A stretch of DNA of 37,048 nucleotides from Planctomycetota bacterium (GTDB taxonomy: Bacteria > Planctomycetota > B15-G4 > SIAN01): assembly GCA_016872815.1 (NCBI GenBank), contig VGYY01000005.1, positions 1 to 37,048 on the forward strand. The letters are read 5' to 3'. A program made the position numbers and the translations under genes. Under the pieces are notes generated by a model. The model searched no databases. It was given only the letters and a program-made list of their open reading frames with translations, and was not told the origin of the DNA. Each line of letters opens with the position of its first letter. The first letter of the stretch is position 1. Of the stretch, positions 2,721 through 16,639 are shown piece by piece.

Positions 2721-3275
2721 ATGACCGCCGTGACCCATCTCCTGCGCCTCGACGTGAACGGCAGCACCGTCGACGTGGCGGCACCGGCCCATTGGACGCT
2801 GCTCGAGGTGCTGCGCTACCGGCTGGCGCTGACCGGCAGCAAACAGGGGTGCGACAAGGGCGACTGCGGGGCGTGCACGGTGCTGTTCGATGGCAAGGCG
2901 CGCCTCGCCTGCATCACGCTTGCCGCCGACGCGGTCGGCCATCGCGTGACGACGATCGAGGGGCTGGTCACGCCGGCCGGCCTCGACGTGCTGCAGCGCA
3001 CCTTCGACGAAGCGGGGGCGCTCCAGTGCGGCTTCTGCCAGCCGGGGATGATCGTCGCGGCGCGCGCCTGCCTCGACCGCAAGCCGGACGCGACGCGCGC
3101 CGAGATCAAGGAGGCGCTCGCCTCGAACCTCTGCCGCTGCACCGGCTACACCAAGATCTTCGAGGCGGTCGAGCAGGCGGTCCGCGCCGGCAAGGCGGCC
3201 CACGTCGGCGGCCCCGCGAGCCTGCTCCCGAGCGGCGATGCCACACCCGCCCCCGCGAGCGGAGCCGCGCGATGA
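2721..3275 (+). CDS. [2Fe-2S] subunit of xanthine dehydrogenase-family molybdenum hydroxylase (4-hydroxybenzoyl-CoA reductase gamma-like)
   Basis: Cys motifs GCDKGDCGACTVLFDGKARLAC, CGFCQPG and NLCRCTGY; first gene of an overlapping three-gene operon. Confidence 0.92.
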   Translation: MTAVTHLLRLDVNGSTVDVAAPAHWTLLEVLRYRLALTGSKQGCDKGDCGACTVLFDGKARLACITLAADAVGHRVTTIEGLVTPAGLDVLQRTFDEAGALQCGFCQPGMIVAARACLDRKPDATRAEIKEALASNLCRCTGYTKIFEAVEQAVRAGKAAHVGGPASLLPSGDATPAPASGAAR

Positions 3276-5704
3276 GCAGCTCCCACGGTTCCGGCAAGCC
3301 GCCCGCCGACCGCGCCGATCCGCTGCAGCACGCGCGGTCGCCGAATCGCACCTTCGGGCCGCAGCCGCCCGGCGAGCAGTTCGAGGTCATCGGCAAGCGG
3401 CTGCGGAAGGTCGACGGCGCCGGCAAGGCGACCGGCGAGGCGCTCTACACCGACGACCTCGCGCTGCCGGGGATGCTCCACGGCAAGACGCTGCGCAGCC
3501 CCCATCCGCACGCGCGGATCAAGCGGATCGACACCACCAAGGCCGAGGCGCTCGCGGGGGTCTTCGGCGTCGTGACCGGCGCCGAGATGCCGGCCCGCTT
3601 CGGCGTCATCCCGTGGACGCCCGACGAGACGGCGCTCTGCATCGACAAGGTGCGCTTCATCGGCGACCCGGTCGCTGCGGTCGCCGCCGTCGACGAGGAG
3701 ACGGCGACCCGCGCGCTCGACCTGATCGAGGTCGACTACGAGCAACTGCCGGCGCTGTTCGATCCGGCCGAGGCGCTCGCGCGCAAGGACGTGCTGGTCC
3801 ACGAGGGGAACAAGCACGGGAACATCACCAAGGAGGTCCTGCTCGAGTTCGGCGATCCCGACGGGGCGCTCGCCAAGTCCGACTTCGTGGTCGAGGACGA
3901 CTACTTCTTCCACGGCACGGCGCACGCGCCGATCGAGACCCACGTCGCACTGGCGCGTTACGGTTCGGACGGAGTGCTGACGCTCTGGTCGGCGACGCAG
4001 ATCCCGCACTACGTCCACCGCGAGCTGGCGAAGGTCCTCGACCTCCCGGCGCCGCAGATCCGCGTGATCCAGCCCTGCCTCGGCGGCGCGTTCGGCGGCA
4101 AGAGCGACCCTTTCAGCCTCGAGTTCTGCGCGGCGAAGCTGGCGATGAAGACGCGCCGGCCGGTCAAGTTCCTCTACACGCGCGAGGAGGAGTTCTACGC
4201 CCACCGCGGCCGCCACCCGATGGCGATGCGCTTCAAGACCGGCCTCTCCAAGGACGGCAGGATCACCGCCGTCGACAGCAAGATCCTGATCGACGGCGGC
4301 GCCTACTCGAGCTTCGGCCTGGTCACGACCTACTACTCGGGTCAGCTCCTCACCGGCCCGCACCAGATCCCGAACTACCGCTTCCACTCGACGCGCGTCT
4401 TCACCAACAAGCCCCCCTGCGGCCCCAAGCGCGGCCACGGCAGCGTGCAGCCGCGCTTCGCGCTCGAAGTGCAGCTCGACCGGCTGGCGGAGAAGGCGGG
4501 GCTCGACCCGATCGAGGTGCGCCGGCGCAACTTCCAGGGCGCCTACACCACGACGGTGAACGGCCAGCGTGTGACCAGCAACGGCTTCGATCAGTGCCTC
4601 GACGTCGTCGAGAAGGCGAGCGGCTGGAAGGAGCGGCGCGGGAAGCTCGGCCGCGGCCGCGGACTCGGCGTCGCCGGCTCGATGTACATCAGCGGCACCA
4701 ACTACTGCATCTACCCGAACGACATGCCGCAGGCGGGGATCCAGATCAAGGTCGACCGCAGCGGCCTCGTGACCGTCTTCAGCGGCGCCAGCGACATCGG
4801 CCAGGGCTCGAACTCGGTCGCCGCCTACATCGTGGCCGAGGAACTGGGCATGCGCGTCGAGGACGTGCGGGTGGTCGCCGCCGACAGCGACCTCTGCCCG
4901 GTCGACCTCGGCGCCTACAGCTCGCGCATCACCTTCATGGTCGGCAACGCGGCGGTCCACGCCGCGCGCAAGCTGCGCAAGCAGGTGCAGGCGGCCGTCG
5001 CGCAGGAGTGGGGGATCGAACCGGAACGGGTCGTGCTGGCCGGCGGCTTCGCCTTCGACAAGGACGATCGCGGCAAGGCGATCACCAGCGCCAAGGCGTT
5101 CCAGATCACCGAGGCGGTGCTCGAGACGCTCGGTTCGACCGGCTCCTACAACACGCCGAACCTCGGCGGCGATTACCGCGGCGGCACCATCGGGGCGAGC
5201 CCCGCCTACTCGTTCACGGCGTGCGTCGCCGAAGTCGAGGTCGACGAGGAGACCGGCATCGTCACGGTGCCGCACGTCTGGACCGCGCACGACTGCGGCC
5301 GCGCGCTGGCACCGGTGCTGGTGGAGGGGCAGATCGAGGGCAGCGCCTACATGGGCTTCGGCGAGGTCTTCCTCGAGCACCACGACGTGAACCGCTACGG
5401 GCTCCACGCGCGGCCGAACCTGCTCGACTACACGATCCCCACCTCGGTCGACTGCCCCGAGTTCCACGCCTCCTACGTCGAGTCGCTCGACCCGGAGGGG
5501 CCGTACGGCGCCAAGGAGGCAGGCGAGGGGCCGCTCCATCCGACGATCCCGGCGATCGCCAACGCGATCCACGATGCGTGCGGCATCTGGCTGACCAAGT
5601 TGCCGTTCACGCCGGCGAAGGTGGTGGCGGCGTTGCAGGCGCGCGATGCGGCGCGAGCGGCGGGTGGCGGTGCGAACGGCACGGCGAACGGGAGGGCGCA
5701 CTGA
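3272..5704 (+). CDS. Molybdopterin-binding subunit of xanthine dehydrogenase-family enzyme (4-hydroxybenzoyl-CoA reductase alpha-like)
   Basis: VIGKRLRKVDGAGKATGEALYTDDL, GGAFGGKSDPFSLEFCAAKLAMKTRRPVK, GPKRGHGSVQPRFALE, GAKEAGEGP; ATGA overlap with the upstream gene. Confidence 0.92.
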   Translation: MSSSHGSGKPPADRADPLQHARSPNRTFGPQPPGEQFEVIGKRLRKVDGAGKATGEALYTDDLALPGMLHGKTLRSPHPHARIKRIDTTKAEALAGVFGVVTGAEMPARFGVIPWTPDETALCIDKVRFIGDPVAAVAAVDEETATRALDLIEVDYEQLPALFDPAEALARKDVLVHEGNKHGNITKEVLLEFGDPDGALAKSDFVVEDDYFFHGTAHAPIETHVALARYGSDGVLTLWSATQIPHYVHRELAKVLDLPAPQIRVIQPCLGGAFGGKSDPFSLEFCAAKLAMKTRRPVKFLYTREEEFYAHRGRHPMAMRFKTGLSKDGRITAVDSKILIDGGAYSSFGLVTTYYSGQLLTGPHQIPNYRFHSTRVFTNKPPCGPKRGHGSVQPRFALEVQLDRLAEKAGLDPIEVRRRNFQGAYTTTVNGQRVTSNGFDQCLDVVEKASGWKERRGKLGRGRGLGVAGSMYISGTNYCIYPNDMPQAGIQIKVDRSGLVTVFSGASDIGQGSNSVAAYIVAEELGMRVEDVRVVAADSDLCPVDLGAYSSRITFMVGNAAVHAARKLRKQVQAAVAQEWGIEPERVVLAGGFAFDKDDRGKAITSAKAFQITEAVLETLGSTGSYNTPNLGGDYRGGTIGASPAYSFTACVAEVEVDEETGIVTVPHVWTAHDCGRALAPVLVEGQIEGSAYMGFGEVFLEHHDVNRYGLHARPNLLDYTIPTSVDCPEFHASYVESLDPEGPYGAKEAGEGPLHPTIPAIANAIHDACGIWLTKLPFTPAKVVAALQARDAARAAGGGANGTANGRAH

Positions 5705-6738
5705 TGTTGCGGCTCGAACCGTTCGCGTTCGCGAGACCAGGCAGCGTCGATGAGGCGGTCGCGCTGCTGGCGAAGCACGGCCGCGCGGCCAGACTGATCG
5801 CCGGCGGCACCGACGTGATGCCGAACCTGAAGCACGGCCTCTACGAGCCGGAGGTGGTGATCGGCCTCTCCGCCGTGGCCGAACTGCGCGGGATCGCGCT
5901 CGAGGGCGGCGGTGCCGCCGCGAACGGCTCCGACGGCGAGCTGGTGATCGGCGCGATGACCACGCTCGCGGAGGTCGAGAGCCATCCGCTGGTGCTGGCG
6001 CGCGCGCCCGGCCTGGCGCAGGCGGCGCGATCCGTCGCCGGCCCGACGCAGCGGACGATGGGGACGCTCGGCGGCAACGTCTGCCTCGATACCCGCTGCG
6101 TCTGGATCAACCAGAGCCACTTCTGGCGCAAGAGCCTCGGCTACTGCCTGAAGAAGGACGGCACCGTCTGCCACGTGGTGCAGGGCGGCAAGAGCTGCGT
6201 GGCCGCCGCCAGCAACGACACGGCGACGCTGTTGTGCGCGCTCGGTGCGACGCTGGTGATCCGCAGCGCGCGCGGCGTGCGCGCGGTGGCGATCCGCGAC
6301 TTCTACAAGCCCGACGGCGCGATGAACCAGCGCCTCGAGCCCGATGAGCTCTTGACGCAGATCCGCGTGCCCGCGCCGCGCCGCTCCAGCGGCGCGAGCT
6401 GGTCGGGCTACGCCAAGCTGCGCGCGCGCAACTCGATCGACTTCCCCAAGCTCTCGATCGCGGTGGCATGGACCACCGACCGCGTCGGCGCGATCGACGA
6501 CGCCACGCTCGTGGTGAGCGCCATCGCCGCCGTGCCGCGCGTCATCGCCGGCATCGCCGACCTCGCCCGCGGCGGCCGCGCCGACGACCCGGCGCTGATC
6601 GCCCGCCTCGGCGAGCAGGCGCGCAAGGTGACGATCCCGCTCACCAACATCGACGGCGACACCGGCTGGCGCCGCGCGATGGTGCCGGTCTTCGTGAAGC
6701 GGGCATTCGCCGCGGCGCGCATGGCGACGACGGGCTGA
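5704..6738 (+). CDS. FAD-binding subunit with HcrB-type [4Fe-4S] loop (4-hydroxybenzoyl-CoA reductase beta-like)
   Basis: LIAGGTDVMPNLKHG FAD motif; GTLGGNVCLDTRCVWINQSHFWRKSLGYCLKKDGTVCHVVQGGKSCVAA; TGATG overlap with the upstream gene. Confidence 0.9.
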   Translation: MLRLEPFAFARPGSVDEAVALLAKHGRAARLIAGGTDVMPNLKHGLYEPEVVIGLSAVAELRGIALEGGGAAANGSDGELVIGAMTTLAEVESHPLVLARAPGLAQAARSVAGPTQRTMGTLGGNVCLDTRCVWINQSHFWRKSLGYCLKKDGTVCHVVQGGKSCVAAASNDTATLLCALGATLVIRSARGVRAVAIRDFYKPDGAMNQRLEPDELLTQIRVPAPRRSSGASWSGYAKLRARNSIDFPKLSIAVAWTTDRVGAIDDATLVVSAIAAVPRVIAGIADLARGGRADDPALIARLGEQARKVTIPLTNIDGDTGWRRAMVPVFVKRAFAAARMATTG

Positions 6739-9106: not shown

Positions 9107-9637
9107 ATGCGTTACTGGGTCGACGGCTACAACGTGATCCACCGTGCGCCGATCGGCGCGGGCGCGAGCCTGCACGAGCGGCGCGCGGAGCTGCTGGCGC
9201 GGATCGCGGCAAGCGGGATGGCGGCCTTCGTCGCCTTCGACTCGAAGGAGCGCGTGGTCGGTGCCGAGCCGAGCGTGCCGCGCCGGATCGAAGTCGCGTT
9301 CGCGCGGGGCGGGCAGAACGCCGACCAGCTGCTGCTCGAGCGGCTGCGCAAGGAGCGCGACCTGCGCGGCGCGGTGCTGGTCAGCGACGATCGCGACCTG
9401 CGCGACCGCGCGCCGGGGCTCGGGGTGGAGACGCTGACGGTGGCGGCGTTCGCGAAGAAGCTCCTGCCGGCCGGCGCGGCCGGCGACGGCGCGAAGGGCG
9501 GCGGCCGGAAGGCGGCGAGCGGCGCGGCCGCGGGCGGGCGCGCGCTGTCGCGGCGCGAGGTCGATGACTGGATGGAGTGGTTCGGCTACGAGCGCGCGCC
9601 GGGAGCGGCGCCGGCGCCGAAGCGGAGCCGCCGATGA
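9107..9637 (+). CDS. NYN-domain (YacP-like PIN-fold) putative ribonuclease
   Basis: MRYWVDGYNVIHR, FVAFDSKERV, FARGGQNADQLLLERLRKERDLRGAVLVSDDRDLRDRAPGLGVETLTVAAFAKKL; acidic residues spaced as in NYN domains. Confidence 0.82.
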   Translation: MRYWVDGYNVIHRAPIGAGASLHERRAELLARIAASGMAAFVAFDSKERVVGAEPSVPRRIEVAFARGGQNADQLLLERLRKERDLRGAVLVSDDRDLRDRAPGLGVETLTVAAFAKKLLPAGAAGDGAKGGGRKAASGAAAGGRALSRREVDDWMEWFGYERAPGAAPAPKRSRR

Positions 9638-10728
9638 GCGCCCCGAAGCCCGAACTCGCCATCGATCCCGACATCACGCGGGCGCGGATGCCGCCGGCGG
9701 CGCTCTACCGCGATCCGGCCTGGTGGAAGGCGCTGTGCGACGGGCCGCTGGCGCGCGGCTGGCACTGCCTCGGCGTGGCCGACGGGCTCGAGGCGGTCGG
9801 CGCCGCGCGGCCGCTCGTGCTGCTGCCGGGCGCGCTCGACGAACCGGTGGTGGTCGTGCGCGGCGGCGACGGCGAGCTGCGGCTGCTCGCCAACGCATGC
9901 ACCCATCGCGCCCACCTCGTGGTCGAGCAGGCGGGGTGCGGGCGCGCGCTGCGCTGCAGCTACCACGGGCGCGGCTTCGCGCTCGACGGGCGGTGCACCG
10001 GTGCGCCGGGGTTCGAGGGAGTGGCCGGTTTCCCGGGAGCCGAAGACGCGCTCGCGCGCTACGCGCTCGCCGAGTGGCGCGGGCTCCTGTTCGGGTCGCT
10101 CGCGCCCGAGGCGCCGTGGCGCGAGGTGATCGCGCCGGTGGAGGAGCGGGCGGCGCCGTTCCTGCCGGCGCGCTGGCGGCATGACGCGACGCTCGACCAG
10201 ACCTTCGAGTTCGACGGCCACTTCGCGCTGTACGTCGAGAACTACCTCGAGGGGCTGCACATCCCGTTCATCCATCCGGGGCTGAACGCGCGACTCGACT
10301 GGAAGCAGTACGGCTACGCGAGCTTCGCCCACGGCACGCTGCAGGTCGGCGTCGCCGCCGCGGGCGAGCCGACGTTGCCGCTGCCGGCCGGGCATCTCGA
10401 CACGGCGCGCGGGCCGGTGGGCGCGCTCTACTTCTGGCTCTTCCCGACCACCATGGTGAACCTCTATCCGTGGGGCCTCTCGCTCAACGTGATCGAACCG
10501 CTCGGGCCGGCGCGCACGCGGGTCCGCTTCCTCGCTTTCGTCGAGCGGCCGGAGTTGCACGATCGCGGCGCCGGTTCGGGGCTGGTGCAGGTGGAGCTCG
10601 AGGACGAGCGCGCGGTGCTGCAGGTGATGAAGGGGCTCGCCGCGCGCGCGTACCGCGGCGGCCGGTACGTCCCGCACGCCGAGCAGGGCGTCCACGCCTT
10701 CCACCGGATGCTCGCGCGCACGCTCTGA
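9634..10728 (+). CDS. Rieske [2Fe-2S] aromatic ring-hydroxylating oxygenase alpha subunit-like protein
   Basis: Rieske motif CTHRAHLVVEQAGCGRALRCSYHGRGF; mononuclear iron motif ENYLEGLHIPFIH; ATGA overlap with the NYN gene. Confidence 0.9.
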   Translation: MSAPKPELAIDPDITRARMPPAALYRDPAWWKALCDGPLARGWHCLGVADGLEAVGAARPLVLLPGALDEPVVVVRGGDGELRLLANACTHRAHLVVEQAGCGRALRCSYHGRGFALDGRCTGAPGFEGVAGFPGAEDALARYALAEWRGLLFGSLAPEAPWREVIAPVEERAAPFLPARWRHDATLDQTFEFDGHFALYVENYLEGLHIPFIHPGLNARLDWKQYGYASFAHGTLQVGVAAAGEPTLPLPAGHLDTARGPVGALYFWLFPTTMVNLYPWGLSLNVIEPLGPARTRVRFLAFVERPELHDRGAGSGLVQVELEDERAVLQVMKGLAARAYRGGRYVPHAEQGVHAFHRMLARTL

Positions 10729-10863: not shown

Positions 10864-11625
10864 TCAGTGGCCGGTGTGGCCGTCGATGACGAGGGCGAGG
10901 CGCAGCGGCTCGGGCGGGTCGGTGGGGGCGGCGCCGGCGGCGCGACCGAGCAGGGCGACTTCGAGCGCCTGCTCGGCGAGCTCCCCGCGCTGCGCGATCC
11001 GCGGCTGGCCGTCCGGCGGCGCCGGCTCGCTCGCGGCGGTCACATAGAGCACCAGCGCGTGGTCGCTCGGCGACACCGGCACCGACAGCGCCAGCAGCGC
11101 TTCCTTGGTCGTGACCGCTTCCGGCGACTGCTCCTCGGCGAGGCTGGTCAGCACGAGGAAGTCGCGGCTGTCCGAGGTGCCGAGGTGGTTGCCGTCGCTC
11201 GGCTGATGGACGTAGCGCAGGCCGTAGACGCCGGCGTCGATCGCCTGGTCGCGGTAGTCGTGCGCCCCGGTCACGGCACGGGCCACGCCGACGAACGCCC
11301 CCGGCTCGATCCGCCCCAGCGTGAAGTTGCCGTCCGCCGCCTGCGGCAGCAGCGGCAGCTCGGCGCGCCACCAGACCTCGAGCCGCACCTTGCCGTCGGG
11401 AGCCACCACGCGCATCCCGTCCGCCGCGAGCAGCGCCGCGAACGACTCCTTCGCGCGCGCCGCATCCGGCACGGTCGAGCCGCCCGCCGCGTCGCGGATC
11501 GGCTCGACCCGCCAGACTTTCGCCGCGGGAGCCGCCACCGGCGCCACCGCGGGCGCCGCCTCCTGGCCGCCGTCGCTGGAAGCGCCGCCGCACCACAGCA
11601 GCGCGATGCAGAAGCTCGCTCGCAT
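10864..11625 (-). CDS. Hypothetical exported protein / lipoprotein
   Basis: 253-aa ORF, N-terminus MRASFCIALLWCGGASSDGG; coherent protein composition; no family recognised. Confidence 0.65.
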   Translation of the reverse strand: MRASFCIALLWCGGASSDGGQEAAPAVAPVAAPAAKVWRVEPIRDAAGGSTVPDAARAKESFAALLAADGMRVVAPDGKVRLEVWWRAELPLLPQAADGNFTLGRIEPGAFVGVARAVTGAHDYRDQAIDAGVYGLRYVHQPSDGNHLGTSDSRDFLVLTSLAEEQSPEAVTTKEALLALSVPVSPSDHALVLYVTAASEPAPPDGQPRIAQRGELAEQALEVALLGRAAGAAPTDPPEPLRLALVIDGHTGH

Positions 11626-11683: not shown

Positions 11684-12466
11684 TCAGCGCGCCCTGACCT
11701 CGTCGTGACCGACCGTCCGCGGCGGCACCGCCGTCTCGATCTCGAACTTGCCGAGGAAGGCGCTGCGCGAATCGCGGTCGATCCACGCCAGCTCGAGCAG
11801 CGTCCCCTTGACCTTGTGCTCGACGGTGAAGACGGCGTGCTTGTCGGCCAGCGCCGTGACCAGCGGCGGATAGAAGGTCTTCTCGTGGCCGCAGACTTCG
11901 TCGGTCTCCTTGAGGCAGCGCGTCTCGATCTGCGCGATCTCGCCGGCCTCGAACTTGGCGCACCCCTCCTTGTCGCAGCAGTCGACCTTGAGCGCGATCG
12001 AGGTCGGGATCTCCTCGATCACGTTGCCGCCGAGCTCGCCCGCCTGGGTCGCGACGAAGTCGCGCAGCGCGCGCAGTTGCTCGTCGTTCGCGCGCGCGTC
12101 GACCAGCAGGACGTTCCGCACCGGCAGCGCCGAGTGGTAGGGGTCGCCCAGCGTCGATTTGGCGACGATCACCAGCGCGACGCCGAGCCCCTTCAGCTCG
12201 ACGCCCTTCCAGGCGCCCTCGCTGAACTTCCAGACCAGGGTCGCCTGACGGCCCTGCTCGCTGGTCTCCGAGTTGGCGTAGCAGGCGCCGACCCAGACAT
12301 CGCAGGTGCGCGCCTCGAGGTAGTCGCCGCGGAGCATCGAGGCGAGCGGTGCGCTCGGCTGCGGCCGCGGCCGCTCGTCATCACCACGGCTCGTGTCGCC
12401 ACCGAACCCGGCGAACGCGCTACCGGCCAAGAGCAGCGCGCCCAGTACCGCACTCACGGTCCGCAT
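11684..12466 (-). CDS. DUF1326-like exported protein
   Basis: Signal peptide MRTVSAVLGALLLAGSAFA, then LRGDYLEARTCDVWVGACYANSE...QATLVWKFSEGAWKGVELKGLGVALVIVAKSTLGDPYHSALPVRNVLLVDARANDEQLRALRDF; DUF1326-type pattern. Confidence 0.8.
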   Translation of the reverse strand: MRTVSAVLGALLLAGSAFAGFGGDTSRGDDERPRPQPSAPLASMLRGDYLEARTCDVWVGACYANSETSEQGRQATLVWKFSEGAWKGVELKGLGVALVIVAKSTLGDPYHSALPVRNVLLVDARANDEQLRALRDFVATQAGELGGNVIEEIPTSIALKVDCCDKEGCAKFEAGEIAQIETRCLKETDEVCGHEKTFYPPLVTALADKHAVFTVEHKVKGTLLELAWIDRDSRSAFLGKFEIETAVPPRTVGHDEVRAR

Positions 12467-12622: not shown

Positions 12623-12856
12623 TCACCCCTCGTAGCAGCCGCGCTCCGGGTTGCACTTCGCGGCGTCGCACGGCTCGCTCTCGGGACCGAGGGCCGTGAA
12701 CGTCTTCAGGCACCAGAAGCTGCGCCCTTCGAGGGCGCGCACCGGATCGGCCTGCCACCGTTCCATCTGCTCCTGCGAGGTGTAGTACATCTCCTTGCAG
12801 CGCAGATTGCGGCAGAGGCGGTGGCCGGCAGCCGGACGCAGGTTGGCGAAGCTCAT
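12623..12856 (-). CDS. Small Cys-rich protein of unknown function, last gene of the molybdenum hydroxylase operon
   Basis: MSFANLRPAAGHRLCRNLRCKEMYYTSQEQMERWQADPVRALEGRSFWCLKTFTALGPESEPCDAAKCNPERGCYEG; its start lies 1 nt after the FAD subunit stop. Confidence 0.75.
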   Translation of the reverse strand: MSFANLRPAAGHRLCRNLRCKEMYYTSQEQMERWQADPVRALEGRSFWCLKTFTALGPESEPCDAAKCNPERGCYEG

Positions 12857-12857
12857 C

Positions 12858-13847
12858 TCACGCTCCCTTCAGCGCCGCCGCGCACGCGCGCCGCAGCGCG
12901 ACCTGCGCCAGCTCGACCTTGTAGGCGTTGCCCTTGAGCGGAGTCGCCGACTTCGCGACCGCCGCCGCCAGACCGGCGATGGCGGCGGCGTCGATCGCCT
13001 TGCCGACCAGCGCCGCCGCTTCCGGCACGCTCCAAGGCGTCGGCGCCACGTGGCCGAGCGCGACGCGCGCCGCCACGCACTTGCCGCCGCCGTCCAGCTC
13101 GAACGCAACCGCCGCCGCCGCCAGCGGCCAGTCGAGTCCCTGGCGCGGGCGCACCTCGTAGGTCGCGCTCCGCGGCCGCGGTCGCGGCAACGTGACCGCC
13201 ACCAGCAGTTCGTCGGCGGCGAGCGCGGTCTCGCGCTCGCCCGCCGTCGCCGGCGTTCGGTAGAGCTCCTCGACCTGGACGGTCCGGTTGCCCTTCGGCG
13301 ACGCGATCTCGGCGGTGGCGCCGCAGGCGATCAGCGCCGGCGCCAGGCTCGATGCGTGCACGAACTTCGCGGGTCCCGCGTTGCCGAAGACCGCGTGGTA
13401 GCGGTGGTCGCCCTTCTCGACCATCGAGCTGCCGTCGGCCTCCTGCGCCAGGAGCCCGTGACCGCGCCGGAAGTACCAGCAGCGCGGCCGCTGCAGCAGT
13501 TCGCCGCCGACGGTGCCCATGGCGCGCAGCTGCAGGCTGCGGATCCCCGCCGTGGCGTGCCAGAGCGCCGGCCACTTGGCGGCCCACTGGTTCAGCGCGC
13601 CCGACTGCAGCAACGCGTCGAGCGTGACCGTCGCGCCGATCCGGAGCCCGTCCTTGCCGACCGTGATCGCCTGCAGCGGCGCGATCCCCATCAGCGAGAC
13701 CAGCCGCTTCGGCTCGACCACGAAGTCCTTCATCAGCGAGAGCAGGTCGGTGCCGCCGGCGAGCGGCGCCACCTCGCCGTCCTTCGCCGAGAGCAGCCCG
13801 ATCGCCTCCTCGACCGTCGCCGGCCGCGCGTACTCGAATGCGTTCAT
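12858..13847 (-). CDS. FAD-binding subunit of xanthine dehydrogenase-family enzyme (PaoB/YagS-like), cluster cysteines largely missing
   Basis: MNAFEYARPATVEEAIGLLSAKDGEVAPLAGGTDLLSLMKD...LRIGATVTL...GTVGGELLQRPRCWYFRRGHGLLAQEADGSSMVEKGDHRYHAVFG. Confidence 0.9.
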   Translation of the reverse strand: MNAFEYARPATVEEAIGLLSAKDGEVAPLAGGTDLLSLMKDFVVEPKRLVSLMGIAPLQAITVGKDGLRIGATVTLDALLQSGALNQWAAKWPALWHATAGIRSLQLRAMGTVGGELLQRPRCWYFRRGHGLLAQEADGSSMVEKGDHRYHAVFGNAGPAKFVHASSLAPALIACGATAEIASPKGNRTVQVEELYRTPATAGERETALAADELLVAVTLPRPRPRSATYEVRPRQGLDWPLAAAAVAFELDGGGKCVAARVALGHVAPTPWSVPEAAALVGKAIDAAAIAGLAAAVAKSATPLKGNAYKVELAQVALRRACAAALKGA

Positions 13848-13863: not shown

Positions 13864-15993
13864 TCACGTCTTCAGCGCGGCGAGGACGCGGTCGGGCGTC
13901 ATCGGGCAGCGCTTCACGCGGGCGCCGATCGCGTTGGCGACGGCGTTGGCGATCGCCGCCATCGGGCTGATCGCCGGCGGCTCGCCGATGCCGATCACGC
14001 CGCGCGCGACGTGCTCGGGCGTCTGCATCATGTGGACGTCGAGCCGCCCGACGTCGGCGATGCCGGCGAGCTTGTAGAACTCGAGGTCCGGGTTCAGCAC
14101 GACGCCGGTGACCGGATCCTGGATGCGCTCCTCGTAGAGCGCCGCGCAGACCCCCATGATCATCGCGCCGCGCACCTGGCTCTCGGTGGTGAGCAGGTCG
14201 ATGATGCGGCCGCAGTCCTGCACCGCGACCATCTGCCGCACGGTGACGATGCCGGTCTCGCAATCGACCTCGACGTCGGCCATCTGCACGCCGCCGACCT
14301 GCGAACTCGACATGCCGTTGCCGCGCTGCGTCTGCCCCATGGTCACGACCGGCTGCGCGCCGAGCCGCCGGCAGGCGTCGGCGAACGGCACGCCTCCCGC
14401 CGCCGACTCGCGGCCGCGGATCAGCCCGTCCTTCGCGATCAGCTGTTCCGGCGCCGCGTTCATCTCCGGCGCGATCGCCGCGCACAACTTGTCCAGCGCC
14501 TGCACGCAGGCATGGCGCGTCGCCGTGCTGATGGCGCCGACGGTGGTGGAGCCGCCCGAGCCGTCCGATTGCGGGTAGCGGTTCTCGCCGATCAGCACGG
14601 TCACCTTGGCGAGCGGCAGCCCGAAGGTCTCGGCCGCGACGATGCCGATGGTGGTGCGCGCGCCGACGCCGAGGTCCTGCGTGCCGCACCGGAGCTCGAC
14701 CGCGCCGTCGGGGTGGAGCGTGCACTGCACGTTGCTGTTGTGCGGCCCGCCGCCCCAGGTGTGCAGGGCGAGGCCGACGCCGCGGCGCACCACGTCGCCC
14801 TGGTCGCCGCGCGGGATCCACTTCTTCTTCCAGCCGATCATCTCGGCGGCGATCTCGAGTTCCTCGCGGTAGACGTCGGCGCGCGAAGTGAGCCCGAGGT
14901 TCTTCCGGAAGAAGTCGAGCTCGTCCATGCCGAGCTCGGCCGCGGCATCCGACAGCGCCGCCATGGTCAGCAGGCACATCTGCGGGTGGTTCGGCGCGCG
15001 CCACGCCCGCTGCGCGCCGGTGTTGGTGAAGATCGGCGTCGACTTCACCTTCTTGTTCGGGATGTTGCCGAAGACGTAGGGGAGGCCCGGCGCGCCCATG
15101 CCGCCGTTGACGCCGCCGGTGCCCCAGGCGTCCGACTCCCAGGCGACGATCTCGCCGTCGTCCTTGACGCCGACGCGCATGCGACCGAACGCCGACAGGC
15201 GCGAACCGGCCAGCGCGATCTCCATGTCGCGCTCCAGCATCACCTTGACCGGCCGGCCGGTCTGCCGGGCGAGCCGCGCCGCCAGCGCGCCCCAGAGGTC
15301 GGCGCCGAACTTGGAGCCGAAGCCGCCGCCCATGTGCTGGCAACTGACGCGCACCTGCGCCGCCGGCACACCGGCCGCCTGCGCGAACTCGCCGCCCACG
15401 CCCGACACCGCCTGCGACGAGCACCAGGCGCGCACGACCGGCTGTCCGTCCTCCTCGCCGAACTCGACCACCGAGCCGTGCGACTCGAGGCAGCAGTGGG
15501 TGAGCACCGAACAGCCGACCTCGGTCTCGCTCACCACCGCCGCGCCGCCGATCGCCTCGGCGAAGTCGTCGGTGAGCTGCTCGCGGCCCGGCTTCGCCTG
15601 GTTGCCGGCCATGGCGACGTCGTCATCGACGACGTTGTGGGCGAGACGGTCGAAGGTCACCTTGACCCGGCGCACTGCCTCGCGCGCGATCTCCTCGCTC
15701 TCCGCGGCGATGCAGGCGACCTCCTGGAACGAGGTCTTGAGCTCGCTGCCGACCCCGGCGATCACCTCGACGGCGACCACGCCGGGCAGCTGCTGCGCCG
15801 GCGTCACGTCCAGGGAGGCGACCCGCGCCCGCCCGTACGGGCAGGTGACGAACTTCGCCCAGAGCATGCGCGGACGGTTGATGTCGTAGGTGTACTTCGC
15901 CCGTCCGGCGCACTTGTCGGGGCCGTCGATGCGCGGCACGCGCGTGCCGAGCAGCGAGCAGTCCTTCGGATCGGGCCACGCGAGGTCGGCCAT
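13864..15993 (-). CDS. Molybdopterin-binding subunit of xanthine dehydrogenase-family enzyme (PaoC/YagR-like)
   Basis: LLGTRVPRIDGPDKCAGRAKYTYDINRP, SCQHMGGGFGSKFGADLWG, NTGAQRAWRAPNHPQMCLLTMAALSDAAAELGMDELDFFRKN, GIGEPPAISPMAAIANAVANAIG. Confidence 0.92.
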   Translation of the reverse strand: MADLAWPDPKDCSLLGTRVPRIDGPDKCAGRAKYTYDINRPRMLWAKFVTCPYGRARVASLDVTPAQQLPGVVAVEVIAGVGSELKTSFQEVACIAAESEEIAREAVRRVKVTFDRLAHNVVDDDVAMAGNQAKPGREQLTDDFAEAIGGAAVVSETEVGCSVLTHCCLESHGSVVEFGEEDGQPVVRAWCSSQAVSGVGGEFAQAAGVPAAQVRVSCQHMGGGFGSKFGADLWGALAARLARQTGRPVKVMLERDMEIALAGSRLSAFGRMRVGVKDDGEIVAWESDAWGTGGVNGGMGAPGLPYVFGNIPNKKVKSTPIFTNTGAQRAWRAPNHPQMCLLTMAALSDAAAELGMDELDFFRKNLGLTSRADVYREELEIAAEMIGWKKKWIPRGDQGDVVRRGVGLALHTWGGGPHNSNVQCTLHPDGAVELRCGTQDLGVGARTTIGIVAAETFGLPLAKVTVLIGENRYPQSDGSGGSTTVGAISTATRHACVQALDKLCAAIAPEMNAAPEQLIAKDGLIRGRESAAGGVPFADACRRLGAQPVVTMGQTQRGNGMSSSQVGGVQMADVEVDCETGIVTVRQMVAVQDCGRIIDLLTTESQVRGAMIMGVCAALYEERIQDPVTGVVLNPDLEFYKLAGIADVGRLDVHMMQTPEHVARGVIGIGEPPAISPMAAIANAVANAIGARVKRCPMTPDRVLAALKT

Positions 15994-15994
15994 C

Positions 15995-16639
15995 TCAGTT
16001 GCCTCCCTTGCCGGCCAGCGCGTCGACGACCGCCTGCGCGACGCCGTGATAGGTGCCGCAGCGGCAGAGGTTGCCGCCCAGCCCGTCGAGCGCCTGCTCG
16101 CGCGTGGCGCCGGGGTTGGCGCGCTTGAACGACTCGCACGCCATGACGAAGCCCGGCGTGCAGAAGCCGCATTGCTGGGCGTCGTTGGCGACGAAACACT
16201 TCTGGATCGGCGCGGCGCCGCCGTGGGTCTCGGCGAGCCCCTCGACCGTCTCGATGGCACGGCCGTTCGCCTCGACCGCCAGCACGGTGCAGGCGTAGAC
16301 CGCCTTGCCGTCCAGCAGGACCGTGCACGCCCCGCAGGTGGCGCGATCGCACACCTTCTTGGCGCCGGTCAGGTCGAGGTGGTTGCGCAGCGCATCGAGC
16401 AGCGTCACCCGCGGCTCGAGGCGCAGCTGGCGCACCTTGCCGTTGACGTTCAGGGCCACCGCGACTGGAGCGGGACCGAACACCGTCCCGGCCGCCGCGG
16501 CCTGTGGCCCGGCCTTCGCACCGAGTGCGGCGGCCGCGGGGGCGACTGCGCCGGCAGCCAGCGCTCCGGCGCCCACTCCCTTGAGGAAGCCACGCCGCGA
16601 GACGCCGGAAGCGTCCTGCGGCTGATCGGACCGGCTCAT
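15995..16639 (-). CDS. Tat-exported [2Fe-2S] subunit of xanthine dehydrogenase-family enzyme (PaoA/YagT-like)
   Basis: Twin-arginine signal GVSRRGFLKGVGAGALAAGAVAPAAAA; KVCDRATCGACTVLLDGKAVYAC, QQCGFCTPG and NLCRCGTY iron-sulfur motifs. Confidence 0.92.
   Translation of the reverse strand: MSRSDQPQDASGVSRRGFLKGVGAGALAAGAVAPAAAALGAKAGPQAAAAGTVFGPAPVAVALNVNGKVRQLRLEPRVTLLDALRNHLDLTGAKKVCDRATCGACTVLLDGKAVYACTVLAVEANGRAIETVEGLAETHGGAAPIQKCFVANDAQQCGFCTPGFVMACESFKRANPGATREQALDGLGGNLCRCGTYHGVAQAVVDALAGKGGN

Follow-up and report, generated by a model that had tools for sequence, protein, structure and literature searches.

A PaoABC-like molybdenum hydroxylase from a clade of FAD subunits that appears to have lost its [4Fe-4S] ligands once, and an undescribed four-cysteine protein encoded beside it

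What becomes of an exported molybdenum hydroxylase when its FAD subunit carries one of the four cysteines expected to hold a [4Fe-4S] cluster? The reference enzyme, PaoABC, oxidizes aromatic aldehydes in the periplasm, and to our knowledge the role of its [4Fe-4S] cluster is open. This cluster, bound by four cysteines of the FAD subunit, has been called characteristic of the enzyme (PMC13404670). In Escherichia coli, PaoB and PaoC cross the membrane by means of the TAT signal of PaoA (PMC4273604), and the natural electron acceptor of the complex had not been identified as of PMC3958847. The case studied here comes from a 37,048-nucleotide stretch of planctomycete DNA (the window).

The FAD subunit (329 aa, positions 12858-13847, minus strand) is PaoB/YagS-like in its domains, FAD_binding_5 (PF00941, E = 2.3e-34) and CO_deh_flav_C (PF03450, E = 1.7e-13). 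It keeps the AGGTDLL and TVGG motifs and, after T-GG, the insert with the QRxRCxYF framework. Its open reading frame contains ...GTVGGELLQRPRCWYFRRGHGLLAQEADGSSMVEKGDHRYHAVFGNAGPAKFVHASSLAPAL..., and the former [4Fe-4S] loop corresponds to residues 119-165 (13353-13493, minus strand); residues 117-162 read LLQRPRCWYFRRGHGLLAQEADGSSMVEKGDHRYHAVFGNAGPAKF. Cysteines are found at 123, 175, 257 and 322 and nowhere else. E. coli PaoB has exactly four (C119, C129, C138, C157), all in the loop, which align with C122, C138, C146 and C155 of HcrB (1RM6); the latter we take to be the ligands of its [4Fe-4S] cluster, the numbering being consistent. For 4-hydroxybenzoyl-CoA reductase, the HcrB enzyme, such an extra [4Fe-4S] cluster is named in a paper title (Unciuleac et al. 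2004). At the four positions the window subunit has C123, L133, S141 and A160, in agreement with the sequence-only reading that only the first cysteine, near residue 123, is left. Close homologs show the same loop. The same reading had credited the other molybdenum hydroxylase of the window with a complete loop, and its FAD subunit (5704-6738, plus strand) indeed keeps 4/4 cysteines (132, 148, 156, 165). This second enzyme (2721-6738, plus strand) is of the HcrB type, and no TAT signal was seen on its FeS subunit.

An AF2 model of the FAD subunit has a pLDDT of 89.9 overall, with 5y6q_B, 1rm6_B and 5g5g_B as best fold matches. The lowest values (62-71) lie around residues 121-140, a stretch that would fit a surface loop in need of a partner. 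Chain B of 5Y6Q, an aldehyde oxidase of Methylobacillus sp. KY4400, is the nearest solved structure by both sequence and fold; it has the four-Cys loop, whereas the window subunit does not. HcrB carries an insert loop at the same site of the FAD subunit but has four Cys ligands and belongs to a separate clade; against TIGR03195 (4-hydroxybenzoyl-CoA reductase beta) the score is 184 bits, below the cut-off of 404.6. FAD subunits of the CoxM type (CO dehydrogenase, quinoline oxidoreductase) share the FAD fold and likewise have no [4Fe-4S] cluster. In these the insert is missing entirely, the alignments breaking at this point, whereas in the window subunit it is kept and rewritten.

Elsewhere in the enzyme the FeS, Mo and FAD motifs are all intact. 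Upstream of the FAD gene lie those for the Mo-binding subunit (709 aa, 13864-15993, minus strand, with GGGFGSK and GEPP) and for the 2x[2Fe-2S] subunit (214 aa, 15995-16639, minus strand), whose TAT signal reads SRRGFLKG and whose two cluster motifs are complete. The window thus resembles E. coli PaoABC (YagTSR, 5G5G) in its FeS(TAT)/FAD/Mo gene set, in the QR.RC.YF ... HA framework and in fold. It differs in gene order (FeS-Mo-FAD), in having no XdhC and in an added small four-Cys gene and DUF1326 gene. The sole XdhC_CoxI match of the genome lies on a different contig, so that the operon is without a PaoD-type chaperone. Against the NCBIfam PaoC equivalog NF041671 the Mo subunit scores 290 bits, below the cut-off of 1180. 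Because it has one of the four ligand cysteines, we file the window subunit in a cluster-less clade inside the PaoB lineage and not as PaoABC. A gene for a Rieske ring-hydroxylating oxygenase alpha subunit lies near the operon (9577-10728, plus strand).

The age of this state was addressed with a wider set of FAD subunits, sampled in depth in three phyla (Planctomycetota, Acidobacteriota and Hydrogenedentota). Over 191 of them three ligand states were found: CCCC (four-Cys), CCC(S/T) (three-Cys) and C(L/F/V/M)(S/A/P/D)(A/G) (cluster-less); no two-Cys intermediate occurs among the listed ligand patterns. In a FAD-driven scan of GTDB contigs, which gave 80 loci, mostly labelled Acidobacteria with some Planctomycetota and Hydrogenedentota, every locus with a pattern-readable loop was cluster-less. 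Trees were built without the loop columns. In a 68-row tree all sampled cluster-less subunits form one clade (bootstrap/SH-aLRT 100/97), and this clade, together with a mostly four-Cys sister group, lies inside the four-Cys subunits (100/98); in a 127-row tree a single change suffices for the cluster-less state. The three-Cys state, in which Ser or Thr stands at the fourth ligand (L008, L014, L015, L140, L141, L142, L157, L162 and others), takes about four changes on the tree.

Since the cluster-less subunits are nested within four-Cys subunits, the polarity is that of a loss. The trees indicate a single, ancestral loss of the ligands, and the state has been passed down to members of Planctomycetota, Acidobacteriota and Hydrogenedentota. 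The loss being old and common to the whole clade, the window gene itself lost nothing recently. The initial proposal that this subunit appears to have lost its cluster loop is partly supported: the direction holds, but the loss belongs to the whole clade. The objection foreseen with it, that the wider clade might have no cluster, largely applies, yet the tree still gives an ancestral loss.

What followed the loss does not look like decay. Among 52 cluster-less representatives, C123, W124, Y125, R127 and G129 are each present in 52/52, G131 and A160 in 51/52, L132 in 48/52 and L133 in 47/52, and the motif RxG[FY]GLL is fixed in the clade. The alignment thus speaks for a loop that was rewritten rather than left to decay: a C123 that was a mere cluster ligand would be expected to drift, and instead it is kept throughout. 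A monophyletic cluster-less clade in which the first cysteine and the rewritten loop are conserved amounts to a natural experiment on the role of the [4Fe-4S] cluster. Variants exist: in L145, L150 and L161, a divergent branch within the clade, HLPNCWYFRKGYGLL replaces QRPRCWYF, and in L208 the stretch from the first cysteine to YHAIFGN is shortened (QRPRCWYFRNGMIPGADADLRYHAIFGN).

Directly downstream of the FAD gene, with its start codon 1 nt past the FAD stop codon, an open reading frame (12623-12856, minus strand) encodes a protein of 77 aa, MSFANLRPAAGHRLCRNLRCKEMYYTSQEQMERWQADPVRALEGRSFWCLKTFTALGPESEPCDAAKCNPERGCYEG. Its cysteines C15, C49, C68 and C74 are invariant in a family of homologs (kept in 165/165 members); C20 and C63 are additional. 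The dN/dS of about 0.28-0.39 among three same-genus copies, together with membership of a wide family, indicates that the frame is coding. In the family K, R, W, T and GPD are nearly invariant as well, and the four cysteines are spaced by 25-37, 17-19 and 5-7 residues without any CxxC pair among them. Their invariance makes metal binding a likely, predicted property of the 77-aa protein. No export signal of its own was found in it, and it could be cytoplasmic. The model is of moderate quality (pLDDT 72.7) and gave no fold match in the PDB.

The family is undescribed and has no match in Pfam, NCBIfam or PDB. Searches of Pfam and NCBIfam with 61 members and the profile gave nothing convincing: DUF7549 (0.14) and CoV_NSP10 (0.055) in Pfam were set aside as chance, as was NCBIfam PRK10183 (0.001), hit by 1/61 members only. 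The profile search of the PDB returned only a nanobody (E 1.2), also a chance match. Our literature search found nothing on the small protein or on the cluster-less clade.

The small gene is tightly linked to the FAD gene. Its profile is present in 82/294 Planctomycetota genomes, nearly always in single copy, with E <= 5e-12 and a clear gap, one noise hit excepted. A separate FAD-based search of the same 294 genomes retrieved 90 PaoB-like FAD subunits above a clear score gap. In 80 of these loci the small gene comes immediately downstream in the same orientation; two of the other ten lie at contig ends. The family is also found in 28/149 Acidobacteriota (two weak hits left out) and 14/68 Hydrogenedentota, behind the FAD gene wherever the locus was read. 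By loop type, over all loci, it accompanies 87/88 cluster-less, 13/14 three-Cys and 64/71 four-Cys subunits; the last count is biased, many four-Cys loci having been retrieved via the small gene, whereas the 80/90 count is unbiased. In the FAD-driven scan, 76/77 cluster-less loci with enough downstream sequence carry it. The one that does not, L036, has after its FAD gene a protein with repeated glyoxalase-like sequence. No copy was found in HcrB-type loci (0/9) or in the E. coli paoABCD region, and no fusion to the FAD subunit was seen in the loci examined. The tie to the loop is thus not specific to the loss, four-Cys subunits having the small gene too, and most likely the gene predates the cluster loss and persisted through it. 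For the same reason we discarded the small protein as a specific, simple replacement of the lost cluster.

Taken together, we consider it likely that the operon encodes a TAT-exported PaoABC-like enzyme of the xanthine-oxidase family, that the clade of its FAD subunit lost the [4Fe-4S] cluster once, ancestrally, and that the small protein is a probable metal-binding partner. From the replaced ligands we infer that the cluster is absent from the window subunit. The remaining enzyme being intact, electrons should be able to pass from Mo via [2Fe-2S]I and [2Fe-2S]II to FAD without a fourth centre; they would then exit on the flavin side, towards an acceptor in the periplasm. The FAD and Mo subunits would presumably be exported by the TAT signal of the FeS subunit, as in E. 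coli. If no replacement centre exists, the electron path would be altered accordingly.

For the small protein itself, we give even chances to its being an Fe-S or Zn partner that docks at the loop of the FAD subunit, or close to it, and aids either electron exit or assembly of the complex for export. Conserved beside FAD genes across three phyla or more, and lying outside Pfam and NCBIfam, it is a candidate for a missing component. A bolder form of this idea, which we regard as rather unlikely, makes the family a fourth component of exported PaoABC-type enzymes, with an Fe-S or metal centre of its own at the flavin exit. If true, the small protein would be the outlet for electrons in the cluster-less clade, possibly together with the orphan C123.

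The cluster may also have been lost without any replacement, the small protein being a cytoplasmic Zn factor for maturation or export proofreading with no role in electron transfer. This we judge plausible, if less than probable. It agrees with a protein without signal peptide whose gene lies beside both loop types, and with an operon that has no other obvious dedicated chaperone, XdhC being encoded elsewhere in the genome. On the other hand, the E. coli enzyme needs no such protein for its export (PMC4273604), and the small gene always adjoins the FAD gene, not the Mo or FeS gene.

That the subunit might recruit ligands from another protein had been suggested from the sequence, and the adjoining four-Cys protein does supply a candidate: C123 and cysteines of the small protein would share a [4Fe-4S] cluster at the subunit interface. 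This is possible but not favoured, and we would be surprised to see it borne out. C123 is invariant despite the loss of its three partners, the adjoining protein offers four invariant cysteines outside CxxC pairs, and an extra cysteine occurs at one column of the small protein in 41/87 copies from the cluster-less clade against 1/78 others. However, these extra cysteines are not universal, and the window copy is without the commonest one. The small protein also coexists with full four-Cys loops, which argues that its four cysteines evolved for something else, and the invariant Trp, Tyr and Arg near C123 suggest that this stretch has a structural role. An extra cysteine placed two residues ahead of the conserved cysteine of the WC pair (C-W-C) accompanies loss of the fourth ligand in 11/13 three-Cys cases; as this co-variation comes mostly from one clade, it was not counted as evidence.

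Two explanations deny a real loss. In the first, the clade never had a cluster and four-Cys sites arose repeatedly in other lineages, as the insert-free CoxM-type subunits might invite one to think; our tree refutes it and we give it very little credence, for the sister group and all deeper branches (among them E. coli PaoB, 5Y6Q and HcrB) carry aligned four-Cys loops, and the insert framework and first cysteine are still kept. The second, a sequencing error or frameshift in the assembly, found no support and can be dismissed, since the frame is open and the same conserved loop recurs in FAD subunits of two same-genus genomes (81% and 79% identity), in another family of the same order, and in dozens of other genomes extending to other phyla.

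Behind the small gene in the window follow genes for a DUF1326 (PF07040) protein with an N-terminal signal-like stretch (11684-12466, minus strand) and for a 253-aa protein without Pfam family (10864-11625, minus strand). DUF1326 stands behind the small gene in 47/74 cluster-less, 9/11 three-Cys and 4/34 four-Cys loci, an enrichment that is suggestive only, since all cluster-less subunits fall into one clade and the correlation has little power. In some Acidobacteriota loci DUF1326 is followed by a family that looks like the 253-aa protein.
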